Assembly: GCA_016188575.1 (NCBI GenBank)
Contig: JACPHN010000065.1
Coordinates: 1 to 35,127 of the forward strand
Direction: 5' to 3'
DNA: 35,127 nucleotides
From: Candidatus Schekmanbacteria bacterium
GTDB lineage: Bacteria; CSSED10-310; JACPHN01
The number at the start of each line of letters is the position of its first letter. Positions within the stretch are counted from its first letter, which is position 1. The notes under the pieces are model-generated. The model worked only from the letters and a program-made list of their open reading frames with translations. It searched no databases and was not told the origin of the DNA. Below are positions 210 through 9,628 of this stretch, in pieces. The position numbers were made by a program, and so were the translations under genes.

Positions 210-2805
210 CGAAGGCAAGAGCGCCGCTTCCCCACCCCCCAACCGCGGCGCGGTATGGGGGGAGCACCCGCGGCGCGATCCGGTGGAGAGGTTACAGCTC
301 ACACTCGCGTTGGTTCTTGTTGCGCTGTTCGCGGGCCTGACGACCGCAGATGGCGCGGCGATCGGGGGCGCCGATCGGGTGGCGCCACAGCCGCCGGCCG
401 AGCTCACCGCTAGCGCCGTTGCCAACGGCGTGGCGCTGGCGTGGACCAGCAGCGACGGCGCGGCTCGCTACCATCTGTATCGGCGCGTCGACGAAAGCTC
501 GTCGGTGGCCGAGCGAATTGCTTCGCTGTCCGCGGCCGAGCTTGCATATACGGATCTGGAAGCCTATGCGGGGGTGCGCTACGCGTACTCCGTTTCGGCG
601 GAGTCGGCGGCGGGCGAGGAGGGCGAGCGCTCGCCGGAAGCGACCGTTACCGCCGGCGCGGTCACATTCAACGTCAGTGTCCTTCCGGTCGGCGAGGCGG
701 CTGCGCGCCCGGGTGCAGCGCTGTTTTTTCTCATCGTGAAATCCGAGAACGGGTTCACAGACACCGTCCAAATTGAAGCAATCGATTGGCCGGTCGGGGT
801 GCAGCCGTTTTTTGCCCCATCCCTGGTGCCGGTGACCGCAGCGTCGCCCTGGGGTCTTGCGGGTCTGTGGGTTTCGGTCAGTGAGGAGGCCACGGTGCAG
901 GGGTGGGTGGCACTGAAAGTCCGCGCTACGGGACGCACCAGCGCCCAGGTCGTGGAGGCGTCCGTCAATCTGTACGTGCTGGGCACCGGCGAGACGCGCG
1001 TATTTCTGTGGACATTTCCGGCCCGCGTGCCGCTCGGCGGGCACGCCCATCTTCTCGGGCGCGTCATTCCCGGCGCCGGTGGCGGCGTGGTCACCATCGA
1101 CGCGGTACGGCCCGATGGCTCCGCCTATCCGAGCAAGACCGCGACGACAGGCCCGTTTGGATGGTTCCTGACCGACATTCAGCCGGACCAGGTCGGCGGG
1201 CCATGGCGGGTCACGGCCACCGTGAATGATGCTTCTTCAGCGCCGGCCAGCTTCTCGGTCGGTCAGAGACGGACGCTGATGGGTCTCTACACCGATATTC
1301 AGCCCGGAGAAACCGCTGGTCAGGTCGCGGGTTGGATTTTTCCCAATCCGCACTGGTACGCCTACGAAGCGACGATACCTGACGTCATCCTGCACTACCT
1401 GCCCCCGAACACCAAGGAAGGGGAAGCAGGAGAAGTAGTGCGCTCCGTGCCTCTCAATCCCGACGGCACGTTTGTGGATAACTTTGATGTCTATGCCGGC
1501 GAGGTGGGGAAATGGAAGCTCGTCGCGGAGTGGAGCGGGAACGACGTCTACATGGGGGTAAAACGAGCGGTTCAGGTGCCGCTGCTGGTGAGTGTGGGCA
1601 AGGCGATCGTCCTTGGCGCACTGCCGTCCGGAACGAATCTGGACAGCGTCGCGGGCAACACCATGAAGCGGATGACCGACCTCGCGTATCGGGTGCTGCT
1701 GATGCGGGGCTTCACGGCGGCGGACATCGCCTTTCTGTCACCTGATCTCGCGGACCCGCGAGTCGCCGGCGCCCCCACGCTGCAAAATCTGAGCGCGGCG
1801 GTAGCCGCATTCGCCGGCGCGACCACAAACCAATCGCCACTCGTACTCTACGCCCACGGACGGGCGCCCGCGGGCGCCGCCACCGCTGGTCTGGATCTCG
1901 GAAATGGGGACGTGCTCACATCCGCGGCAGTCAACAGCGTGCTCGGCACCGAATCGACCGTGCTGCTGCTCGATATCGATCAGAGCGGCCGGTACATCGC
2001 CGAAGACCTGGAGCGCTGGAACATTCTGACGGGAGAATGGAGGGCGCTGGTTACGGCGACGAATGACACCAGCCCGGCCCATAGCATGGCGGACGGGAGG
2101 ATCTCGGCGTTCAGCTTTTTCTGGACCTGGACGCAGTATGGGGCGAGTCTTTACGAGGCCGGGTATCTCACCGAGGCAGCGCTCAACACGCTGCTTACGC
2201 CCGAGTTTGCGGCGCAGGATCCGCAGCTCGGGATTTTCCGCAACCGGCAGGGGAACGACGCGTTCGACCTGATTTTGGCCGCGAATGTGTGGATCGGTTA
2301 TCCGGCGCAGCTTCCCACGGCCCCGCCGATTGTTCTGGACACCACGCCGGACGCCACAGCAGAGCGGCTCGGCGGCAGCCGGGAGAGCTTGCGAGCAGGG
2401 CTCGTCCCGTTCTGGGTCAACACCGCGGAACATCTGCCGCCCGTCGCCGGAGCCCCGTCGCCGGCACGAGCGAGCAACTTGCGCGTCTGGGCGGTCCCGT
2501 ACGCCCCCGTGGCGGCGCGCCTGCCCGAGGCGACACGCGGGCCTTACCTTGGCGAGGAGGTCGTGGAGCTCGCTGACCAGGATGGTGACCAGCGCTACAC
2601 GGGAAGCGTGCCGGTGGCGACGGACGGCGCTACAGTGGTGATTTCCTTCGCCGAGAACGAGCTGGGCCTCGTGTCGGATCCCGGTCGCACCGTGATCGTC
2701 GGGCAGGAGGTTCCGGCAGTTCCATCCCCGGGAGCGGAGCTGCTGCTGCTGCTCGCCCTCGCTGCAGCCTGGCGACGCCTGCCGCCCCGGATGCAGGCGC
2801 GATGA
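196..2805 (+). CDS. Large secreted protein: fibronectin-III domain, Ig-like region, inactive C13/caspase-like peptidase domain, PEP-CTERM-like tail
   Basis: The reading is 869 aa from ATG 196. An alternative GTG at 283 gives a compact signal peptide (VERLQLTLALVLVALFAG) and clears the upstream iscB gene, so the true start is uncertain. A fibronectin-III domain covers about residues 65-152. Ig-like beta segments follow to about 460. Residues about 470-690 look like the C13-like caspase-fold domain of secreted bacterial proteins: AIVLGALPSG, AYRVLLMRGF, FLSPD, then the catalytic His in YAHG (H554). Where that family has DACQSG this protein has DIDQSG, so the nucleophilic Cys is Asp595. The fold is probably kept without peptidase activity. 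The C-terminus (PSPGAE, a Leu/Ala helix, then RR) resembles a PEP-CTERM sorting tail. A surface binding role is inference. Confidence 0.75.
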   Translation: MSTRNEGKSAASPPPNRGAVWGEHPRRDPVERLQLTLALVLVALFAGLTTADGAAIGGADRVAPQPPAELTASAVANGVALAWTSSDGAARYHLYRRVDESSSVAERIASLSAAELAYTDLEAYAGVRYAYSVSAESAAGEEGERSPEATVTAGAVTFNVSVLPVGEAAARPGAALFFLIVKSENGFTDTVQIEAIDWPVGVQPFFAPSLVPVTAASPWGLAGLWVSVSEEATVQGWVALKVRATGRTSAQVVEASVNLYVLGTGETRVFLWTFPARVPLGGHAHLLGRVIPGAGGGVVTIDAVRPDGSAYPSKTATTGPFGWFLTDIQPDQVGGPWRVTATVNDASSAPASFSVGQRRTLMGLYTDIQPGETAGQVAGWIFPNPHWYAYEATIPDVILHYLPPNTKEGEAGEVVRSVPLNPDGTFVDNFDVYAGEVGKWKLVAEWSGNDVYMGVKRAVQVPLLVSVGKAIVLGALPSGTNLDSVAGNTMKRMTDLAYRVLLMRGFTAADIAFLSPDLADPRVAGAPTLQNLSAAVAAFAGATTNQSPLVLYAHGRAPAGAATAGLDLGNGDVLTSAAVNSVLGTESTVLLLDIDQSGRYIAEDLERWNILTGEWRALVTATNDTSPAHSMADGRISAFSFFWTWTQYGASLYEAGYLTEAALNTLLTPEFAAQDPQLGIFRNRQGNDAFDLILAANVWIGYPAQLPTAPPIVLDTTPDATAERLGGSRESLRAGLVPFWVNTAEHLPPVAGAPSPARASNLRVWAVPYAPVAARLPEATRGPYLGEEVVELADQDGDQRYTGSVPVATDGATVVISFAENELGLVSDPGRTVIVGQEVPAVPSPGAELLLLLALAAAWRRLPPRMQAR
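210..282 (+). other. Possible right boundary of the iscB element: G/C inverted tracts and a 10-bp direct repeat
   Basis: Just past the iscB stop there is a C-rich tract (about 229-240) facing a G-rich tract (257-264), which could pair as a hairpin around a 16-nt loop. The 10-mer CCGCGGCGCG occurs at 243-252 and again at 268-277. IS200/IS605-type elements have subterminal hairpins rather than terminal inverted repeats, so this could be the right end. No cleavage site or matching left end can be seen here, so the boundary is inferred. Confidence 0.25.
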
Positions 2806-2863
2806 TGACAGCGGCCGCTGAGGCGACTAGCGGGCGCGGCGCGAGCGCGCGAGCGAGCGCCCC

Positions 2864-5386
2864 GTGCTAGGCGGCGGCAAGCGTAAGGCCGCGCTGTCCC
2901 GAATCGGCCCGTACGTGCTCGAAGACCGACTCGGTGAAGGCGGCATGGCGGAGGTCTTTCGCTGCCGGCACGAGGCCACCGGTGAGCGCTTTGCGGCGAA
3001 AATCCCGCACGACGACTGCGATGAGTCGTGGCAAATGCGCTTTCATCGCGAGTGGCGCATCGCTCTTCGCCTCGCGGAGACGTTTCCACGTCACGGCGGT
3101 TTTGTCAAAGCCCATGAAGTCATCGAGATCGGCGATGGGCGTCATGGGTTGATCATGGAGCTCGTCGAGGGTGGAGATGTCAAGACTTATTTTCAGTCGC
3201 TGCGCGGCCGCGAAGAGCTCGGCTTTTCGGAGAAAGCACAGCTCGCGCTGGAGCTCATTCGGCAGACACTGGTGTCGCTGGATCTGCTGCACCGCGAGGG
3301 TCTGATCCACCGCGACCTCAAGCCGAGCAACTTGTTGGTAAGCAGGTCTGGCGAGGTGAAGCTCGCGGACTTCGGTCTGGCGGGCGAGACTGTGGCCAGT
3401 GACTACACGATCATCACGGTCACGGGCGATGTGCTGGGAACTCCATCGCATTGTTCTCCCGAGCAGTTCGGAGATCCCCATAAGGTGGGGCCGGCAAGCG
3501 ACCTTTACTCCGTGGGGTGTGTGCTGTTCGACTTGCTCGCCGGCCGGCCGCCGTTTTGCGGCAACCTCTGGCAGGTGCGGGCGGGCCATCTGGGGCAGCC
3601 GGCTCCGCGCGTGTCGACATTCGCACCGGAGTGCCCCGCTGAGCTCGACGCGTGGGTGGCGGCGCTGCTCGAAAAGGAGCCGCAGGCGCGCCCGCGGTCG
3701 GCCGCTGAGCTGCTCCGGTCTCTACAGACGGTGGTGGCGTGTCTGGCGCGGCGCCACGCCGGTGTGGCCCCGACCCAGCCCCTGCAGCGCCTGGGTCAGG
3801 ATACCGAGACGCACGACCCGACGGAGGACAGGCGCCGCCGCAGCGAGCGCACGGAAGTCGCCGATCCCGGCCGACTCGCACATCGCTATCAGATCAGCGA
3901 GCTGATTGGAAGCGGCGGGATGGGCGCCGTCTTTCGCGCGGTCGACCGGGCGACCGGCGGCAATTTGGTGCTCAAGCTCCCCCACCCCTGGCTCTTGAAG
4001 GACGATGAGATGCGGCGGCGCTGGGACGTGGAGCGCAGCGTCCTGGAGACGCTGGAGCTTCCCGGCATTCCGCGCCTGCTCGACCATGGACCCCGTGCCG
4101 AGTGTGACGTGCCTTTCATCGCCATGGAGCTCGTGAGCGGTCTGCGAATCGACAGGCACTGCGCGCGGCTGGAGGGCGCGCCGGCGCCGGGCCGCGCGCC
4201 GACGTACGCATATCTGCGCGAGGTAGCGCGACTCGCGATCAGACTTTGCCGCATTCTCGTCGAGCTTCACCGCCACGGAATTCTGCATCGGGACGTAAAG
4301 CCCGCAAATATCATCGTGACCAATGACGATCGACCCGTACTGATCGACTTTGGGATTGCCGGGATCTTGCCGGCAAGCGATCCGAATCTGACCCAACGGC
4401 AGACGTCACCAGGCTGGCGAATGGGCTCGCCGCGGTATCAGGCGCGAGAAGCCATGGAGTCGCTGCGCAGCGCCTCGCAGGATAGCGACATTCAGTCGCT
4501 CGGGTTGACGCTGTACGAGCTCGCGACGGGAGTGCCGGTGATCGACCGCGACGCGCGACCGCGGCACCATCACGAGGACTTTCCGGAGGAGCTCGAGGAG
4601 ATCATTGTCTCCATGCTGGCGACGCAGCGGGAGCGGTGGTCGCCGATCAAGGTGGCGGCGCGGCTGGGAGCGTTTTTTGGGCTGGAGAGTCTCGTAGAGG
4701 CCATCTTTTCGCGCGCAGCGCTGACGTATCTCAAGACGCCGCCGTCGCTGGCCGGCCATGGAGAACCTGACCGGGACGCGTCGTCCGCCCTGACCGCCAT
4801 GCGCGGCCTGTTGTCCGCAGCTCCGCCGCAGGTGCTCGTCCTCTCCGGGCCTCGCGGGGGCGGGAAGACGCGGCTGGTGCGGCAGTTACGGACGGAGGCA
4901 GCGGCGAGCTCGCGCCCGGCCGGAGTCGTTCGCCTGGACTGGAGGTCGGTGCGCAGTGAGAAGCTTTCGCGGTTTCAGGCAAACGTCCGCGTGGTCGCGT
5001 TCGATGACGTTGCCGTAGGCACCGGCGAGGAGCGCCGGCGATTGGAGTCCATCCTGGAGTCGCTCGGGGGCTCCTGCTGTCTGATCCTGACATGCGACTC
5101 GGCAGCGGCGGGAGAGGTCGGCGCCATCGCCCGCGGAATCACGGGCGAGGCCGTGCGCGGCGCGGCGCTGCCGCCGCTGTCGGAAGAAGAAACGGCGCGG
5201 CTGGTGTCGTCTCTGCTCGGCGGCGACACCGCACCGGCGGGGCTCTTCCGTGCGGCGTATGCGCGGTCGCGGGGCATTCCCGGCGCCGCGATCACGTTTC
5301 TGGCCGAGAGCATCGGGCCGGAACCGGGGCGCGGGATGCTGAGCCGGGGACCCGATGCCGCCTGGCGAATCGACGCGGACGAGTAG
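2864..5386 (+). CDS. Tandem Ser/Thr protein kinase fused to a C-terminal P-loop ATPase domain
   Basis: The protein is 840 aa from GTG 2864, the first start after an in-frame TAG at 2828; no good Shine-Dalgarno is visible. Kinase 1 (about 17-285) has GEGGMAEVFR, Lys46, HRDLKPSN with Asp151, and DFG at Asp169. Kinase 2 (about 343-615) has GSGGMGAVFR, Lys371, HRDVKPAN with Asp477, and DFG at Asp495. Both keep the residues needed for catalysis. A low-complexity Arg-rich linker (about 300-338) joins them. A Walker A motif, GPRGGGKT, sits at 662-669 and a Walker B-like VVAFDDV has Asp714. Only about 170 residues follow Walker A, so this is a short AAA/STAND-like module without sensor repeats. There is no transmembrane segment, so it is cytoplasmic. 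The FHA protein just downstream is a plausible phosphothreonine-reading partner. Substrates are unknown. Confidence 0.88.
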   Translation: MLGGGKRKAALSRIGPYVLEDRLGEGGMAEVFRCRHEATGERFAAKIPHDDCDESWQMRFHREWRIALRLAETFPRHGGFVKAHEVIEIGDGRHGLIMELVEGGDVKTYFQSLRGREELGFSEKAQLALELIRQTLVSLDLLHREGLIHRDLKPSNLLVSRSGEVKLADFGLAGETVASDYTIITVTGDVLGTPSHCSPEQFGDPHKVGPASDLYSVGCVLFDLLAGRPPFCGNLWQVRAGHLGQPAPRVSTFAPECPAELDAWVAALLEKEPQARPRSAAELLRSLQTVVACLARRHAGVAPTQPLQRLGQDTETHDPTEDRRRRSERTEVADPGRLAHRYQISELIGSGGMGAVFRAVDRATGGNLVLKLPHPWLLKDDEMRRRWDVERSVLETLELPGIPRLLDHGPRAECDVPFIAMELVSGLRIDRHCARLEGAPAPGRAPTYAYLREVARLAIRLCRILVELHRHGILHRDVKPANIIVTNDDRPVLIDFGIAGILPASDPNLTQRQTSPGWRMGSPRYQAREAMESLRSASQDSDIQSLGLTLYELATGVPVIDRDARPRHHHEDFPEELEEIIVSMLATQRERWSPIKVAARLGAFFGLESLVEAIFSRAALTYLKTPPSLAGHGEPDRDASSALTAMRGLLSAAPPQVLVLSGPRGGGKTRLVRQLRTEAAASSRPAGVVRLDWRSVRSEKLSRFQANVRVVAFDDVAVGTGEERRRLESILESLGGSCCLILTCDSAAAGEVGAIARGITGEAVRGAALPPLSEEETARLVSSLLGGDTAPAGLFRAAYARSRGIPGAAITFLAESIGPEPGRGMLSRGPDAAWRIDADE

Positions 5387-5649
5387 TCGCACGGGCGGTC
5401 GCGCGGCGGATGGATCGGCGAACGAAGGCGATCGGGCGTTTTTCTTGCCAAGAATTTGCAGGATGAGTGATCTCGCGTGCGCGAGTGGCGTGGCGCGGGC
5501 AGGAGCGCCCCACCACACGGCCTCAGCCGCCGCTCCGGAGCGCTGCACCGCGCCGTCCGGGCGGAATCGAGGCCGGCACCAGATGCTGGCACCAGTCGTG
5601 CACAGTCAAGACCTCGGCGAGATTGAGCCCATAGCCCAGGAGGTCCGCG

Positions 5650-6039
5650 ATGTATTGCTATCTGGTCGTTGAACGTGCAATGGAAGCGCACGCGCTGTTT
5701 TGGCAGCTCCATCATCAGATCACGGTCGGCCGCGAGCCCCGGTGCGACATCGTGCTCGCCTCAGCCACCGCCAGCCGCCGCCATGCACTCTTCACGACTC
5801 AAAACGGGACCCCCCAGGTGGCTGATCTGTCGGCTAACCAGCTCACGTTCGTCAACGGACAGCGCCTCCGCACGCGCATGGCTGTGCCTCTGGACCACGG
5901 TGACACGGTTGGCTTCGGGCCTGACGGAGACGAGATCTGCTACCGCGTGATCCAGAGATCACGACCGCTCACTCGGGTTCTCGATCTGTTTGAAGATCTT
6001 GAGCAGAAGGATCACCTGAGCCCGGTGTTGGCGGCATGA
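5650..6039 (+). CDS. Small FHA-domain (phosphothreonine-binding) protein
   Basis: The protein is 129 aa. ATG 5650 is preceded by an AGGAGG Shine-Dalgarno at good spacing. The FHA core runs about residues 22-105: ITVGREPRCDIVL (the conserved Gly-Arg), SRRHA (the Ser/Arg/His phosphopeptide-binding turn) and FVNGQRL (the Asn-Gly turn), then LDHGDTVGFG. FHA domains bind phosphothreonine, so the protein may read marks made by the tandem kinase encoded 263 bp upstream; the functional link is inferred from position. No other domain or membrane segment is present. The last 71 nt overlap the 3' end of the converging acyltransferase gene. The 263-bp gap upstream holds no convincing gene. Confidence 0.85.
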   Translation: MYCYLVVERAMEAHALFWQLHHQITVGREPRCDIVLASATASRRHALFTTQNGTPQVADLSANQLTFVNGQRLRTRMAVPLDHGDTVGFGPDGDEICYRVIQRSRPLTRVLDLFEDLEQKDHLSPVLAA

Positions 6040-6556
6040 GGTCGGGGGGAACGAGGAGAGATAGGCCTGCCGCCGGGTGCGCCGGGAGCTCGCGAGCAGG
6101 GTTTCCTGCGACAGTCGCGCTGGCGGCGACGGACTTCGTGACGACGCTTCCGGCGCCGACAATGGCGGCGCGCCCGATTTCGACGCCCGGCAGCAGCACC
6201 GACCCGCCGCCGATTCTGGCGCCCGCGCGCACGATCGGCCCGCGCAGCTCCTTCCCGGTCATCGTCTTGTCGTTGAGCGTGATCACTCCTGGACCGACGA
6301 AGACGTCATGTTCGATCACCACGCCGCGGGTAATGTGGCAGCCGGTCTGAATGGAAACACGGTCACCAATCTGACACGTGCAGATGTTGCAGTGAGACCC
6401 GATCGTACAGCGCTCGCCAATGCGCGCACCGGCATGAATCAGCGAAAAGGAGCCGACGCGGCTGCCCGAACCGAGCTCCACGTCTTGCTGCACCTCGGTC
6501 AGATCCGGATTGTAGAAGTGCACGTCGGGGAAGCGACTGCGAAGTGGCTCAACCAT
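5969..6556 (-). CDS. Left-handed beta-helix (hexapeptide repeat) acyltransferase, WlbB/WbpD-like
   Basis: The protein is about 195 aa from ATG 6556, or 209 aa from ATG 6598. The shorter start is preferred because recognisable sequence begins near RFPDVHFYNP and the overlap with the upstream gene shrinks to 8 nt. Repeated I/V-G-x-x-x-x hexapeptides span most of the chain (IHAGARIGERCTIGSHCNI, VSIQTGCHI, ARIGGGSVLLPGVEIG, IVGAGSVV). It carries the GNPAR end typical of trimeric LbetaH acetyltransferases. The closest memory match is the group that N-acetylates UDP-amino sugars for surface polysaccharide. It is the last gene of the minus-strand MNIO cluster. Whether its substrate is a sugar or the cluster's peptide product cannot be told. 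The Pro-rich C-terminus overlaps the FHA gene antisense. Confidence 0.8.
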   Translation of the reverse strand: MVEPLRSRFPDVHFYNPDLTEVQQDVELGSGSRVGSFSLIHAGARIGERCTIGSHCNICTCQIGDRVSIQTGCHITRGVVIEHDVFVGPGVITLNDKTMTGKELRGPIVRAGARIGGGSVLLPGVEIGRAAIVGAGSVVTKSVAASATVAGNPARELPAHPAAGLSLLVPPDLMPPTPGSGDPSAQDLQTDREPE

Positions 6557-7436
6557 CCGCCACCGCCCGACCGCGCGGCGCCGCGGCGAGGAGACCATCA
6601 GTCAGCAGCTCGGCCCAGAGCTCCAAAGCTTCCTGGTTGCTGGCGCCCGCCCCCGCGGCCAGCTCGATCCAGTCCTCGCGGGACAGTGTCTGCCGTTCCG
6701 CAGCTTCGAGGAGATCGACGAGCGCCGGGGCTCCCATTTCGAGAGTCGGCCCCTCCGCGCCGCTTGGGAAGTCGACGATGATGGCGTCGGCGGCCGTCGC
6801 CTCCGGCGGCCCGCTCGGCGGGCGGGCAGGCAAGGCGAGGTCGGGGTCCACAACGGCGCCGATGGCACCTCTGGGGTGCGAGCGGACCACCGCCAGACAC
6901 TGGCCATAATAGTCGAGCAATCCAGGAGTGACGCGCAGCACGCGTGCGGTCGGCGCCAGTGAAACAGCCACCACCGCCGCGGCGGGGAGAAGCGGCGCGC
7001 GAGGCGCCCGCCGCACCTGGGCAATCGCGTGCTCGACGCGCGCGATCTCCGCAAGTGGACACGATTTCGGTGCGGGTCGAGCGGCGAGCGCGGCCAGGTA
7101 GTCACCGAACGCCAGTGCCATCGGGCGACCCGCGAATATCGACGAACAGAAGAACGCGGACGCGAAAAAGGCGTGTAACTCGTCGACGGAGCCGCTCTGC
7201 CGAGCAAGCAGGGTGCAAGAAACGGGGAATTCCTCCACGATGACGCCGAGCGCGCGCTCGCAGCGGTGGGGATCGGTGCGATACGCGCGCGGGTCCGAGC
7301 GGGTCACCCAGGTGCGCTCCTCTACCGTGAGGTCTACGCCGGCAAGAGTTTCTTCGGGCGCGCTGAAGACTCGCTCGGCGTAGGCGGCGTCGAAAAGCAT
7401 GCGGACCACGGTTTGCTGGGTTGCCGAGTGGCTCAT
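6549..7436 (-). CDS. Probable MNIO partner protein (DUF2063/HvfC- or MbnC-like role)
   Basis: The protein is 295 aa and its ATG overlaps the MNIO stop by 4 nt (ATGA), which implies co-translation. The N-terminal 80 residues are helical with LFDAAYAERVFSAPEETL, LTVEERTWV and several Arg/Asp-rich turns, resembling the small helical domain of MNIO partner proteins. The middle is Ala/Arg-rich with a beta-rich stretch (ARVLRVTPGLLDYYG). The C-terminus is again helical (LSREDWIELAAGAGAS, EALELWAELLTDGLL). There is no signal peptide, no membrane segment and no metal-binding Cys cluster. In characterised systems the gene next to a DUF692 enzyme encodes a protein that recruits the precursor peptide. 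I assign that role mainly from the neighbour and gene order; sequence support alone is weak. Confidence 0.55.
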   Translation of the reverse strand: MSHSATQQTVVRMLFDAAYAERVFSAPEETLAGVDLTVEERTWVTRSDPRAYRTDPHRCERALGVIVEEFPVSCTLLARQSGSVDELHAFFASAFFCSSIFAGRPMALAFGDYLAALAARPAPKSCPLAEIARVEHAIAQVRRAPRAPLLPAAAVVAVSLAPTARVLRVTPGLLDYYGQCLAVVRSHPRGAIGAVVDPDLALPARPPSGPPEATAADAIIVDFPSGAEGPTLEMGAPALVDLLEAAERQTLSREDWIELAAGAGASNQEALELWAELLTDGLLAAAPRGRAVADG

Positions 7437-8323
7437 CGGCGGCAGCTCCGAGCGGGGCTGCGGCTAACTGCATCCGCCAGGCGTCGAAACCCCGGCAAGA
7501 CGCTCTCGATCGCGTTTCGTTCGCACTCGAAAACAACCGCCTTGAGGTTGGGGGCTCGCTCCACGACGTGCTCGAAAATGCGCCACGTGTCGGGGAGGAC
7601 GTTCGGGGTATGGTCATCGTCGACGTACCGAAGCCCGTCATGCTCGCGCCCGCTGCCCCCGGCAACGTGCATTTCCACGACCCGGTCCAGGGGAAACCGC
7701 GCCAACCCCGCGAGCGCGTCCATTCCCGCGAGCTGCTGGTAGATCGCCAGGTGAGCGCAATCCAGCAACATCCCCGTGTCCGCCTCCTCCAAAACGATGC
7801 GAAAGTACTCGAGAAGGTGGAGGTCGCCGAGAAAAACGTGACCCGGCGGGTTTTCCGGGAAGACTTCGAGTCCGCTATCGGTGCGAAGCGCGCGAATGCC
7901 TTGGGCCATGTCGAAAGCGGATGCGGCGCAGAGGATTGGGGGAAGCAAGAGCATGTGACCGCGATCGCGCGGGCCGAAGTGCCACATACCGGCGTCGCCG
8001 CACAGGTATGCGGGGCGGATGCGGCGGACCAGGGCGCGTACGGCCGCGAGCCAGGCGGTGGTGAAGTCGGTCGGATCGTCGAGATTGATGTCCAGGAAAT
8101 GATAGGTGGTGGGCAAACCCGCGCGCAGCCAGGCCTCCGCGTCGGGATCGAGCCCCTTCGCCGTTTCGACGCCGATTTCAAGAAACGACAGCAGGTCCGG
8201 GTATTCTCGCTGCAGACGCAGCACGTCCACGGCCCCCGGCGTCTCGCCGGCGCCATACTCGGTGCTGATCCCGACACCGAGCGCGGGGATTCGCTGAATG
8301 CGCTCGAAAAAGCTGTCGGCCAT
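7433..8323 (-). CDS. MNIO (DUF692) multinuclear non-heme iron oxidative enzyme
   Basis: The protein is 296 aa, a normal length for the DUF692/MbnB-type TIM barrel. Recognisable family positions in order are GVGISTEYGA near the N-terminus, LEIGVET, TTYHFLDINLDD, CGDAGMWHFG, EVFPENPPG followed by FLGDLHLLEYF, LLDCAHLAI, VVEMHVAGG, and HDGLRYVDDDH. These His/Asp/Glu residues match where the family binds its two or three irons. MNIO enzymes oxidatively modify ribosomally made peptides at Cys, Asp or Asn, as in methanobactin, TglHI and ApyHI. This gene lies 45 bp downstream of the M14 peptidase and is coupled to the partner gene. No precursor peptide gene was found nearby. Confidence 0.85.
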   Translation of the reverse strand: MADSFFERIQRIPALGVGISTEYGAGETPGAVDVLRLQREYPDLLSFLEIGVETAKGLDPDAEAWLRAGLPTTYHFLDINLDDPTDFTTAWLAAVRALVRRIRPAYLCGDAGMWHFGPRDRGHMLLLPPILCAASAFDMAQGIRALRTDSGLEVFPENPPGHVFLGDLHLLEYFRIVLEEADTGMLLDCAHLAIYQQLAGMDALAGLARFPLDRVVEMHVAGGSGREHDGLRYVDDDHTPNVLPDTWRIFEHVVERAPNLKAVVFECERNAIESVLPGFRRLADAVSRSPARSCRR

Positions 8324-8368
8324 CGTCCAGTGTCGGTAGGAGCGGCGAGCGGGCGCGGCCGCTACCGT

Positions 8369-9628
8369 TTACTTCATGGCAACCGTACTGGTAGCCACTT
8401 CAGCCAGATAGAGCGCCGCGTCGAGGTTGTCAGCGCAGATCTGGTCGATCTTCGTAGCGCTTGGGGCAAACTCCTGGCCGAGCTCGATGGTGAATGACAG
8501 CGCACCGGCACCGCCGTAGCCCCAGTCATCCGACGTTCCCGTGGTCGGATAGAGATCGTAGCCTTGCAGGGGTTCGTAGGTTCCCCCAGAAAGCGAGGGA
8601 ATGCGCCGGGCGAGCTCGGTGCCGACGGCCTTGTAGCGCGCATCGTCGGGGGTCGGCCCCGCGGTGTATCCCCAGGGCCACAGCACCAGCTCGCCGTAGC
8701 TGTGGTAGGTCAGATAGCCGGACATGGGATGGCTCTTGAGCAGGTCACGGACGGCCTGGCTTTCGGGTTCGGAAAAGGCTTCCGTGCCGCAGTACGTTTC
8801 CGTCCACGGGACGTGAGAGGAGCCTTCACCGCCCCAGTCGCCGGCCGGATCGCCGCTCTGCGCGCCGTCGTAATTCCGATTAAGGTCGACGCCGCGTGAG
8901 CCGTCATAGTTTCCTTTTCGGTTCTTTCGCCACCAGGAATCCTGGGTCTGAGCGTAGATATAACCGTCCGGGTTCACCACGGGCGCAACCCAGATCTGTC
9001 GGGTGTTGACGATGTTCGTTATCCTCGCGTCTTGAGCGTATCCGCTCAGGAGCTGTTCCGCGATGTACAGCGGAACCTCGGCGGCAATCAGCTCGCGGGC
9101 GTGATGCAGACCATCGATGAGGACGTTGGCTTCGGTGGGCTCGTCGCTGGCAGCGTTGTCAGAAATCTTGAGGACGTAGATATCACGTCCCTCGACGCTC
9201 TCGCCGATGATCGAGAGCTGGGCGATGGCGGCGTATTGGGTGGCGAAGGTCGAGAGCTGCGCCACGATTTCGTCGTAGCTGTGGTAGCGCCCCAGACCTC
9301 GCTCGCGCTCGCGGCGGGCGATCTCGGCTTCGACTTGCGCGGTCAGGACGGAGGTGCGATAGCCGGCGAAGCGCCCGAGGAGGCCGCGGAGCTGGTCCGC
9401 GGTGACGATGAGGTCGAGGAGCCTTCCAGGGGAGTAGCCGGCGACATCGATAGCGGGGTCGCGCGCCAGCTCGGCGGCGAGGGTCGGGCCAGGGGCATGA
9501 ACGCGGACGAGCTCGACGGCGCGCGGGTTGGCGGCGGACGCCGGGCCTGCGAGCAGCGCACAGGTGGCGATCAAGACGGACGCGGAGAAAAAGAATGGCG
9601 TGAGGTGCAAGAGGCGGCGGCTGGTCAT
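8369..9628 (-). CDS. Secreted M14-family zinc carboxypeptidase
   Basis: The protein is 419 aa with a signal peptide ending near GPASAA (about residues 1-33). A GGGAG Shine-Dalgarno-like stretch precedes ATG 9628. An N-terminal propeptide-like region (about 34-115) is followed by the M14 fold. The zinc site is GLHHARE (His-x-x-Glu), with a further His in LTYHSYGELVLWPWG. RGVDLNRNY supplies the substrate-binding Asn-Arg, and FTIELG carries the catalytic Glu. It cleaves C-terminal residues from peptides outside the cytoplasm. It is the first gene of the minus-strand cluster leading to the MNIO gene. Trimming of a modified peptide is possible, but secreted M14 enzymes are also common nutritional peptidases, so that link is only inferred. 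Confidence 0.9.
   Translation of the reverse strand: MTSRRLLHLTPFFFSASVLIATCALLAGPASAANPRAVELVRVHAPGPTLAAELARDPAIDVAGYSPGRLLDLIVTADQLRGLLGRFAGYRTSVLTAQVEAEIARRERERGLGRYHSYDEIVAQLSTFATQYAAIAQLSIIGESVEGRDIYVLKISDNAASDEPTEANVLIDGLHHARELIAAEVPLYIAEQLLSGYAQDARITNIVNTRQIWVAPVVNPDGYIYAQTQDSWWRKNRKGNYDGSRGVDLNRNYDGAQSGDPAGDWGGEGSSHVPWTETYCGTEAFSEPESQAVRDLLKSHPMSGYLTYHSYGELVLWPWGYTAGPTPDDARYKAVGTELARRIPSLSGGTYEPLQGYDLYPTTGTSDDWGYGGAGALSFTIELGQEFAPSATKIDQICADNLDAALYLAEVATSTVAMK

Follow-up and report, generated by a model that had tools for sequence, protein, structure and literature searches.

The stretch of DNA analysed here, hereafter the window, is the whole of a 35,127-nt contig (C181; GenBank JACPHN010000065.1, assembly GCA_016188575.1) from the 9.2 Mb genome of a Candidatus Schekmanbacteria bacterium. 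It encodes an enzyme of the MNIO family (DUF692), P0001, and its partner protein, P0002, whose genes lie among four tightly spaced minus-strand genes at positions 5969-9628. The original prediction had described these four genes as an MNIO cassette with ATGA coupling between enzyme and partner, and all four open reading frames (ORFs) were recovered exactly where it had placed them. The features of the region are the following:

8369-9628, minus strand: M14 zinc carboxypeptidase (Pfam PF00246, 1.7e-76)
7433-8323, minus strand: MNIO P0001 (DUF692/PF05114), 296 aa (Pfam 5e-18; AlphaFold2 predicted local distance difference test, pLDDT, 93.3)
7526-8101, minus strand: region of P0001 in which its nine predicted iron ligands lie, all invariant in alignment A5
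7994-7996, minus strand: codon of P0001 Asp110, at the position of TglH His107 (Fe1/Fe2 centre)
7751-7753, minus strand: codon of P0001 His191, at the position of TglH Asn187 (Fe3)
6549-7436, minus strand: MNIO partner P0002, 295 aa, PME-type-2-like (no Pfam match; AlphaFold2 pLDDT 92.8)
7287-7421, minus strand: NHLP/Os1348-leader-like domain of P0002, residues 6-50 (NF038399, 8.7e-6)
6579-6968, minus strand: RRE/winged-helix-like C-terminal part of P0002, approximately residues 157-286 (AlphaFold2 secondary structure; weak Foldseek matches)
5969-6598, minus strand: LbetaH hexapeptide acyltransferase, NeuD/VioB-like (Hexapep 1.3e-20; NeuD_NnaD 6.9e-22, below cut-off)

The MNIO and partner genes overlap by the ATGA motif (TCAT on the plus strand, 7433-7436), and 45 nt separate the M14 gene from the MNIO gene. 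From its annotated start, the LbetaH gene overlaps the partner gene by 50 nt, which would shrink to about 8 nt if translation began at Met15.

That the pair consists of an MNIO and a partner, as originally proposed, was confirmed for both proteins. P0001 matches PF05114 (MbnB_TglH_ChrH) with 65.7 bits, above the curated cut-off of 25, and is the only protein of the 9.2 Mb genome to do so; no PF05114 match was found in seven other genomes of the phylum. Its scores are below the NCBIfam equivalog cut-offs for BufB (60.9 bits against 310), ApyH (55.6 against 400), HvfB (45.2 against 360) and ChrH (20.1 against 600). A Foldseek search with the AlphaFold2 model revealed a TIM-barrel fold nearest to TglH and MbnB, the best PDB matches being TglH, 3bww and MbnB, with E values of 1e-10 to 1e-14. 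Matches to P0001 in a viral-contig scan were due to a chance peptide, YVDDDHTP, and the two that were inspected are phage structural loci. For the P0002 model the top PDB matches were TglI (8hi7_A/8hci_A, from TglHI) and NGO1945 (3dee), with weak matches to the RRE-bearing proteins NisB and McbBCD. The protein has a helical DUF2063-like part and an RRE-like C-terminal part. P0002 lies 3′ of the MNIO gene, is without PF09836 and has an NGO1945/TglI-like fold, the features by which PME-type 2 partners are recognized. It had no match in the viral-contig scan or the plasmid search, and among the relatives only P0002 itself was found.

A scan of 84,980 species genomes with alignment A1, which combines P0001 with three distant relatives, retrieved 80 loci, 59 of which encode close relatives of P0001 (44-65% identity). 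The carriers belong mainly to the Myxococcota (Nannocystis, Enhygromyxa and many metagenome-assembled genomes, MAGs), Planctomycetota and Acidobacteriota, with Krumholzibacteriota also represented; several are Nannocystaceae, the family to which the genus Plesiocystis belongs as well. The partner gene lies immediately 3′ of the MNIO gene in at least 55 of these 59 loci, a count from which L045 and L049 (DUF2461-like ORF), L065 (fragment only) and L107 (frameshifted) were excluded, and enzyme and partner are fused in 7. An ATGA-type overlap between the two was seen in about 32 loci, as determined with a rule-based choice of start. The MNIO and its partner form a genuine unit of two genes that is widely conserved, and the description as a cassette holds for these two genes only. 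In Nannocystis pusilla Na p29, the MNIO (L107, 8001-8836) is spread over two overlapping frames and is either frameshifted or misassembled. Family members are also contained in two MAG records, L059 and L083, whose titles (Bifidobacterium breve and Klebsiella pneumoniae, respectively) do not seem to fit the DNA.

A feature of P0001 that had formed no part of the original prediction is the composition of its iron site. In TglH, Fe1 and Fe2 are bound by His71, His107, Glu151, Asp184, His216 and Glu258, and Fe3 by Asp184, Asn187, Asp229 and His231 (PMC10880893). The P0001 equivalents of the Fe1/Fe2 ligands are His75, Asp110, Glu157, Asp188, His219 and Glu266, and those of the Fe3 ligands, besides Asp188, are His191, Asp236 and His238. 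P0001 would thus keep seven of the nine canonical ligands, whereas His107 is exchanged for Asp110 and Asn187 for His191; all nine positions are invariant in alignment A5. The double exchange, with Asp at the first position and His at the second (hereafter D/H), was observed in P0001, in all 57 relatives whose ligand positions could be read, and in 22 other MNIOs, whereas 27 other MNIOs have the canonical His/Asn and one very divergent outlier has His/His. At L031, a highly divergent MNIO-like protein (236-1153) in which both of these positions are His adjoins a hexapeptide-repeat protein (1294-2487).

The same exchange is present in two accepted members of the family. The modelled ligands of PbsC are His97, Asp133, Glu178, Asp213, His216, His247, Asp260, His262 and Glu290 (PMC12257519), and comparison with this published list showed that both the residues and their +3 and +2 spacings are shared by P0001. 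The PbsC model is called consistent with other MNIO structures in that paper, in the available part of which the exchange is not remarked on (PMC12257519). StdE of Streptomyces thermodiastaticus JCM 4840 (L122), which hydroxylates homocitrulline (PMC13174530), also carries the D/H set. The canonical ligand set is that of the Cys-modifying enzymes MbnB and TglH; it does not define the MNIO family, because PbsC and StdE carry the same exchange as P0001. In a quick maximum-likelihood tree, computed without bootstrap, of unknown root, and including StdE but not PbsC, the D/H proteins are set apart from the others by a branch whose Shimodaira-Hasegawa-like approximate likelihood ratio test (SH-aLRT) support is 99; the branch of the P0001 family has a support of 100, and P0001 forms a clade with StdE.

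D/H enzymes were also seen outside the P0001 family. In three gammaproteobacterial loci (L104 2569-8973, L105 5815-12172 and L110 3082-9666), a D/H MNIO and its partner lie between tgt and yajC-secD with no visible precursor, and the same pair has other surroundings in L108, L109 and L111. Myxococcaceae encode a D/H MNIO of about 549 aa (L036 7584-9233, and L114-L116), the C-terminal extension of which may be a fused partner.

These data bear on the question of whether P0001 is a peptide oxidase at all. Sugar epimerases and AP (apurinic/apyrimidinic) endonucleases are among its Foldseek matches, with weaker scores, and P0001 could accordingly be a TIM-barrel enzyme of the epimerase or endonuclease-IV type. 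This is very improbable, given that TglH, 3bww and MbnB are the top structural matches, that all ligand positions are occupied by possible iron ligands, that the strictly linked partner resembles TglI and NGO1945, and that P0001 falls together with StdE in the tree and has the ligand set of PbsC.

What is known of the characterized enzymes suggests a chemistry for the pair. In MbnB, the substrate Cys binds a ferric site with two His ligands (PMC13419390), and a site in which one His is replaced by Asp need not rely on a thiolate. The characterized D/H enzymes are two, PbsC being a Phe ortho-hydroxylase and StdE a homocitrulline hydroxylase. From the PbsC/StdE-type ligand set of P0001 we therefore infer that the pair catalyses C-H hydroxylation and that its target residue is not Cys.

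The two outer genes of the group behave differently from the MNIO and its partner. No M14 or LbetaH gene was detected at any of the 59 homologous loci at E ≤ 1e-4, and raising the limit to 1 yielded a single unconvincing 53-residue LbetaH match (0.024) located about 6 kb away, and no M14. An all-against-all comparison of the flanking ORFs gave no family in more than four independent loci, and a Pfam scan of the 95 nearest neighbours likewise gave none in more than four, most neighbours being housekeeping genes. Furthermore, both families occur in all seven of the other phylum genomes compared, none of which has an MNIO. The common strand and tight spacing could suggest that the four genes form one operon and pathway, in which the MNIO and its partner would modify a peptide, the LbetaH enzyme acylate it and the secreted M14 peptidase trim it. 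We consider this highly unlikely: besides the neighbourhood data, the M14 protein has an obvious Sec signal peptide (judged by eye), whereas the MNIO and its partner have none. Since they are absent from the 59 loci and no other gene recurs there, the M14 and LbetaH genes are chance neighbours that lie outside the system. The original prediction had counted them as members, and this part of it fell with the neighbourhood comparison, the pair being kept in 59 loci without them; such a result had been specified in the prediction itself as one that would refute it. Elsewhere in the window, a two-kinase-domain protein with an ATPase-like part (2864-5386) and, after it on the same strand, a small FHA-domain protein (5650-6039) are encoded.

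The absence of a visible precursor, in contrast, was borne out on a larger scale. Small ORFs (25-150 aa) from the surroundings of the 59 pairs were matched against one another by blastp, and none was found to follow the pair across lineages. Candidates that did recur near the pairs were attributed to shared synteny within Nannocystis or to antisense-like frames. In a positive control, the same comparison of four Std-type loci ranked the StdA precursor top in all four; the method therefore detects such precursors when present. The earlier suggestion of a substrate that is a larger protein or has its gene at another place is plausible.

One form of this suggestion is that the pair modifies, perhaps on Cys, a small precursor of a ribosomally synthesized and post-translationally modified peptide (RiPP) whose gene lies elsewhere in the genome, to give a metallophore or other small peptide. 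The characterized MNIOs in the literature covered all act on RiPP precursors, and contigs C168 and C157 of the genome itself contain NHLP-type precursor-like ORFs; these, however, adjoin radical-SAM or caspase-like genes and not an MNIO. Among 29 Nannocystales genomes, the P0001 type is present in 15 (at 1e-115 or better, one copy each, with several canonical MNIOs alongside), whereas NHLP matches were found in only 8 and are missing from most of the P0001-type genomes. NHLP precursors acting in trans are thus unsupported, there being no co-occurrence with the P0001 type in this order. As the ligand set is moreover of the PbsC/StdE type, we regard a RiPP precursor in trans as possible, if rather doubtful.

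On contig C168 (L130; ORFs 1825-2133, 2269-4473, 4583-5725 and 7212-8660), an NHLP-like precursor with a ELSDDELEAAAGG segment stands beside B12-type and other radical-SAM-like ORFs, and another radical-SAM-like ORF there has an NHLP-like N-terminus. On contig C157 (L131), an NHLP-like precursor ORF at about 6000-6309 lies near a caspase-like protein (7093-9450).

A second feature that was new with respect to the original prediction is the N-terminus of P0002. Its first 50 residues match NF038399, the Os1348 NHLP leader family, at 8.7e-6 (25.7 bits, below the curated cut-off of 40), and a match at E ≤ 0.01 was found in 19 of 50 homologous partners, the best at 6.9e-9. A profile of the partner N-terminus matched the 85-residue chain 6lk7 (4.6e-5) and nitrile hydratase alpha chains (4ob1 at 0.0035, others weaker). 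The NHLP-like N-terminus is also found in the partners of other D/H MNIOs and in the PME-type-2 partners of two BufB-like MNIOs; there was no match in two HvfC-type (PME-1) partners nor in one Std-type partner (locus L113). PosA, the substrate of an MNIO-nitroreductase system, bears an NHLP-type leader (PMC12636437), and a shared docking role of the domain might be hypothesized. A full-text literature search for MNIO, partner protein and nitrile hydratase jointly returned nothing beyond one general review.

Such a leader-like N-terminus could also mean that P0002 carries the substrate itself, a later segment being the modified core. The modelled P0002 is, however, a single well-folded TglI-like protein, the C-terminus of the partners is variable with no conserved core motif, and the same N-terminus occurs in PME-type-2 partners of BufB-like MNIOs. 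We have rejected P0002 as its own substrate for want of a core motif conserved among the partners, and give the idea very little credence.

Taken together, we propose that P0001 and P0002 form an MNIO-partner complex similar to TglHI or MbnBC, in which the RRE-like part of P0002 would hold a peptide or protein tail and P0001 would oxidize one residue of this tail with O2 at its multi-iron centre. C-H hydroxylation would be the probable reaction, the target being a non-Cys residue of a substrate whose gene lies elsewhere in the genome. This account as a whole, comprising the complex, the PbsC/StdE-type iron site, hydroxylation of a non-Cys residue, a substrate in trans and unrelated M14 and LbetaH genes, is one that we hold with moderate confidence. 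More speculatively, the D/H MNIO may act on a larger cellular protein instead of a RiPP peptide, the NHLP-like domain being an MNIO-docking module placed either on the substrate (PosA) or on the partner (PME-2); this we consider unlikely.

Several observations weigh against the proposed hydroxylation of a substrate in trans. No substrate of P0001-P0002 was found, and blastp with a 25-aa floor could miss a precursor that is very short or evolves fast. In L045 and L049, both from Myxococcota, a DUF2461-like ORF with an ATGA overlap takes the partner's place 3′ of the MNIO. The association of the D/H set with non-Cys hydroxylation is drawn from two characterized enzymes, and for PbsC the ligands were assigned in an AlphaFold 3 model and not in a crystal structure (PMC12257519). 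Enzymes with the canonical set may likewise act on residues other than Cys, the Asp-modifying ApyH, PflD and PesH being outside the comparison. Finally, the D/H counts do not represent independent events, because the exchange may have occurred only once in evolution and the scan pattern was derived from D/H sequences.

The analysis defines a family of MNIO-partner pairs, mainly of Myxococcota, Planctomycetota and Acidobacteriota, which travels without a precursor. It also provides a two-residue iron-site signature, readable in any MNIO sequence, by which non-Cys hydroxylases have so far been marked; if it holds, uncharacterized MNIOs could be sorted by their likely chemistry from sequence. The resemblance of the partner N-terminus to NHLP leaders, in turn, points to a possible evolutionary origin of enzyme, partner and substrate recognition.

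As the original prediction had it, the layout of the locus matches none of the Mbn, Tgl, Chr or Buf systems, and the 59 P0001-type loci differ from the bufferin (BufABC), methanobactin, TglHI, chryseobasin and aminopyruvatide systems in having no adjacent precursor. TglHI, which makes 3-thiaglutamate, is similar in combining an MNIO with a DUF2063-like/RRE partner and is the top structural match for both P0001 and P0002, but TglH has His107/Asn187 where P0001 has Asp110/His191, and TglHI acts on a C-terminal Cys, whereas no TglA-like precursor is encoded at the P0001 locus. PbsC, which carries out Phe ortho-hydroxylation in the biosynthesis of biphenomycin-like peptides, has a modelled ligand set identical to that of P0001 in residues and spacing, including Asp133 and His216 (PMC12257519), but the four precursors, the arginase and the additional enzymes of the pbs cluster are all missing from the P0001 locus. 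StdDE, responsible for homocitrulline bis-hydroxylation in S. thermodiastaticus, shares the D/H set through StdE, which belongs to the same larger clade as P0001; however, StdA, the carbamoyltransferase and YcaO-TfuA have no counterpart at the P0001 locus, and the partner at the StdDE-related locus L113 differs from P0002 in lacking an NHLP match. A Streptomyces std-like arrangement of D/H MNIO, carbamoyltransferase and TfuA was also observed on a plasmid of the betaproteobacterium Piscinibacter (L006 4729-12480; NZ_CP136338.1). The PME-type 2 partners of Antoine et al. (2025; PMC12452194), as described in the available part of that paper, resemble P0002 in their DUF2063-like and RRE fold, in the lack of a Pfam signature and in their position 3′ of the MNIO, and their model D is a Plesiocystis pacifica protein (PMC12452194). 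The main text of the study does not name the NHLP resemblance, and neither the family of orphan pairs nor the ligand exchange was met in that part of it. The same NHLP-type domain is found in another MNIO system, namely in the leaders of PosA and PflA (Os1348/Os17 NHLP), which belong with the MNIO-nitroreductase enzymes PosD and PflD (PMC12636437); there the domain is the leader of the substrate, whereas in P0002 it forms the N-terminus of the partner.

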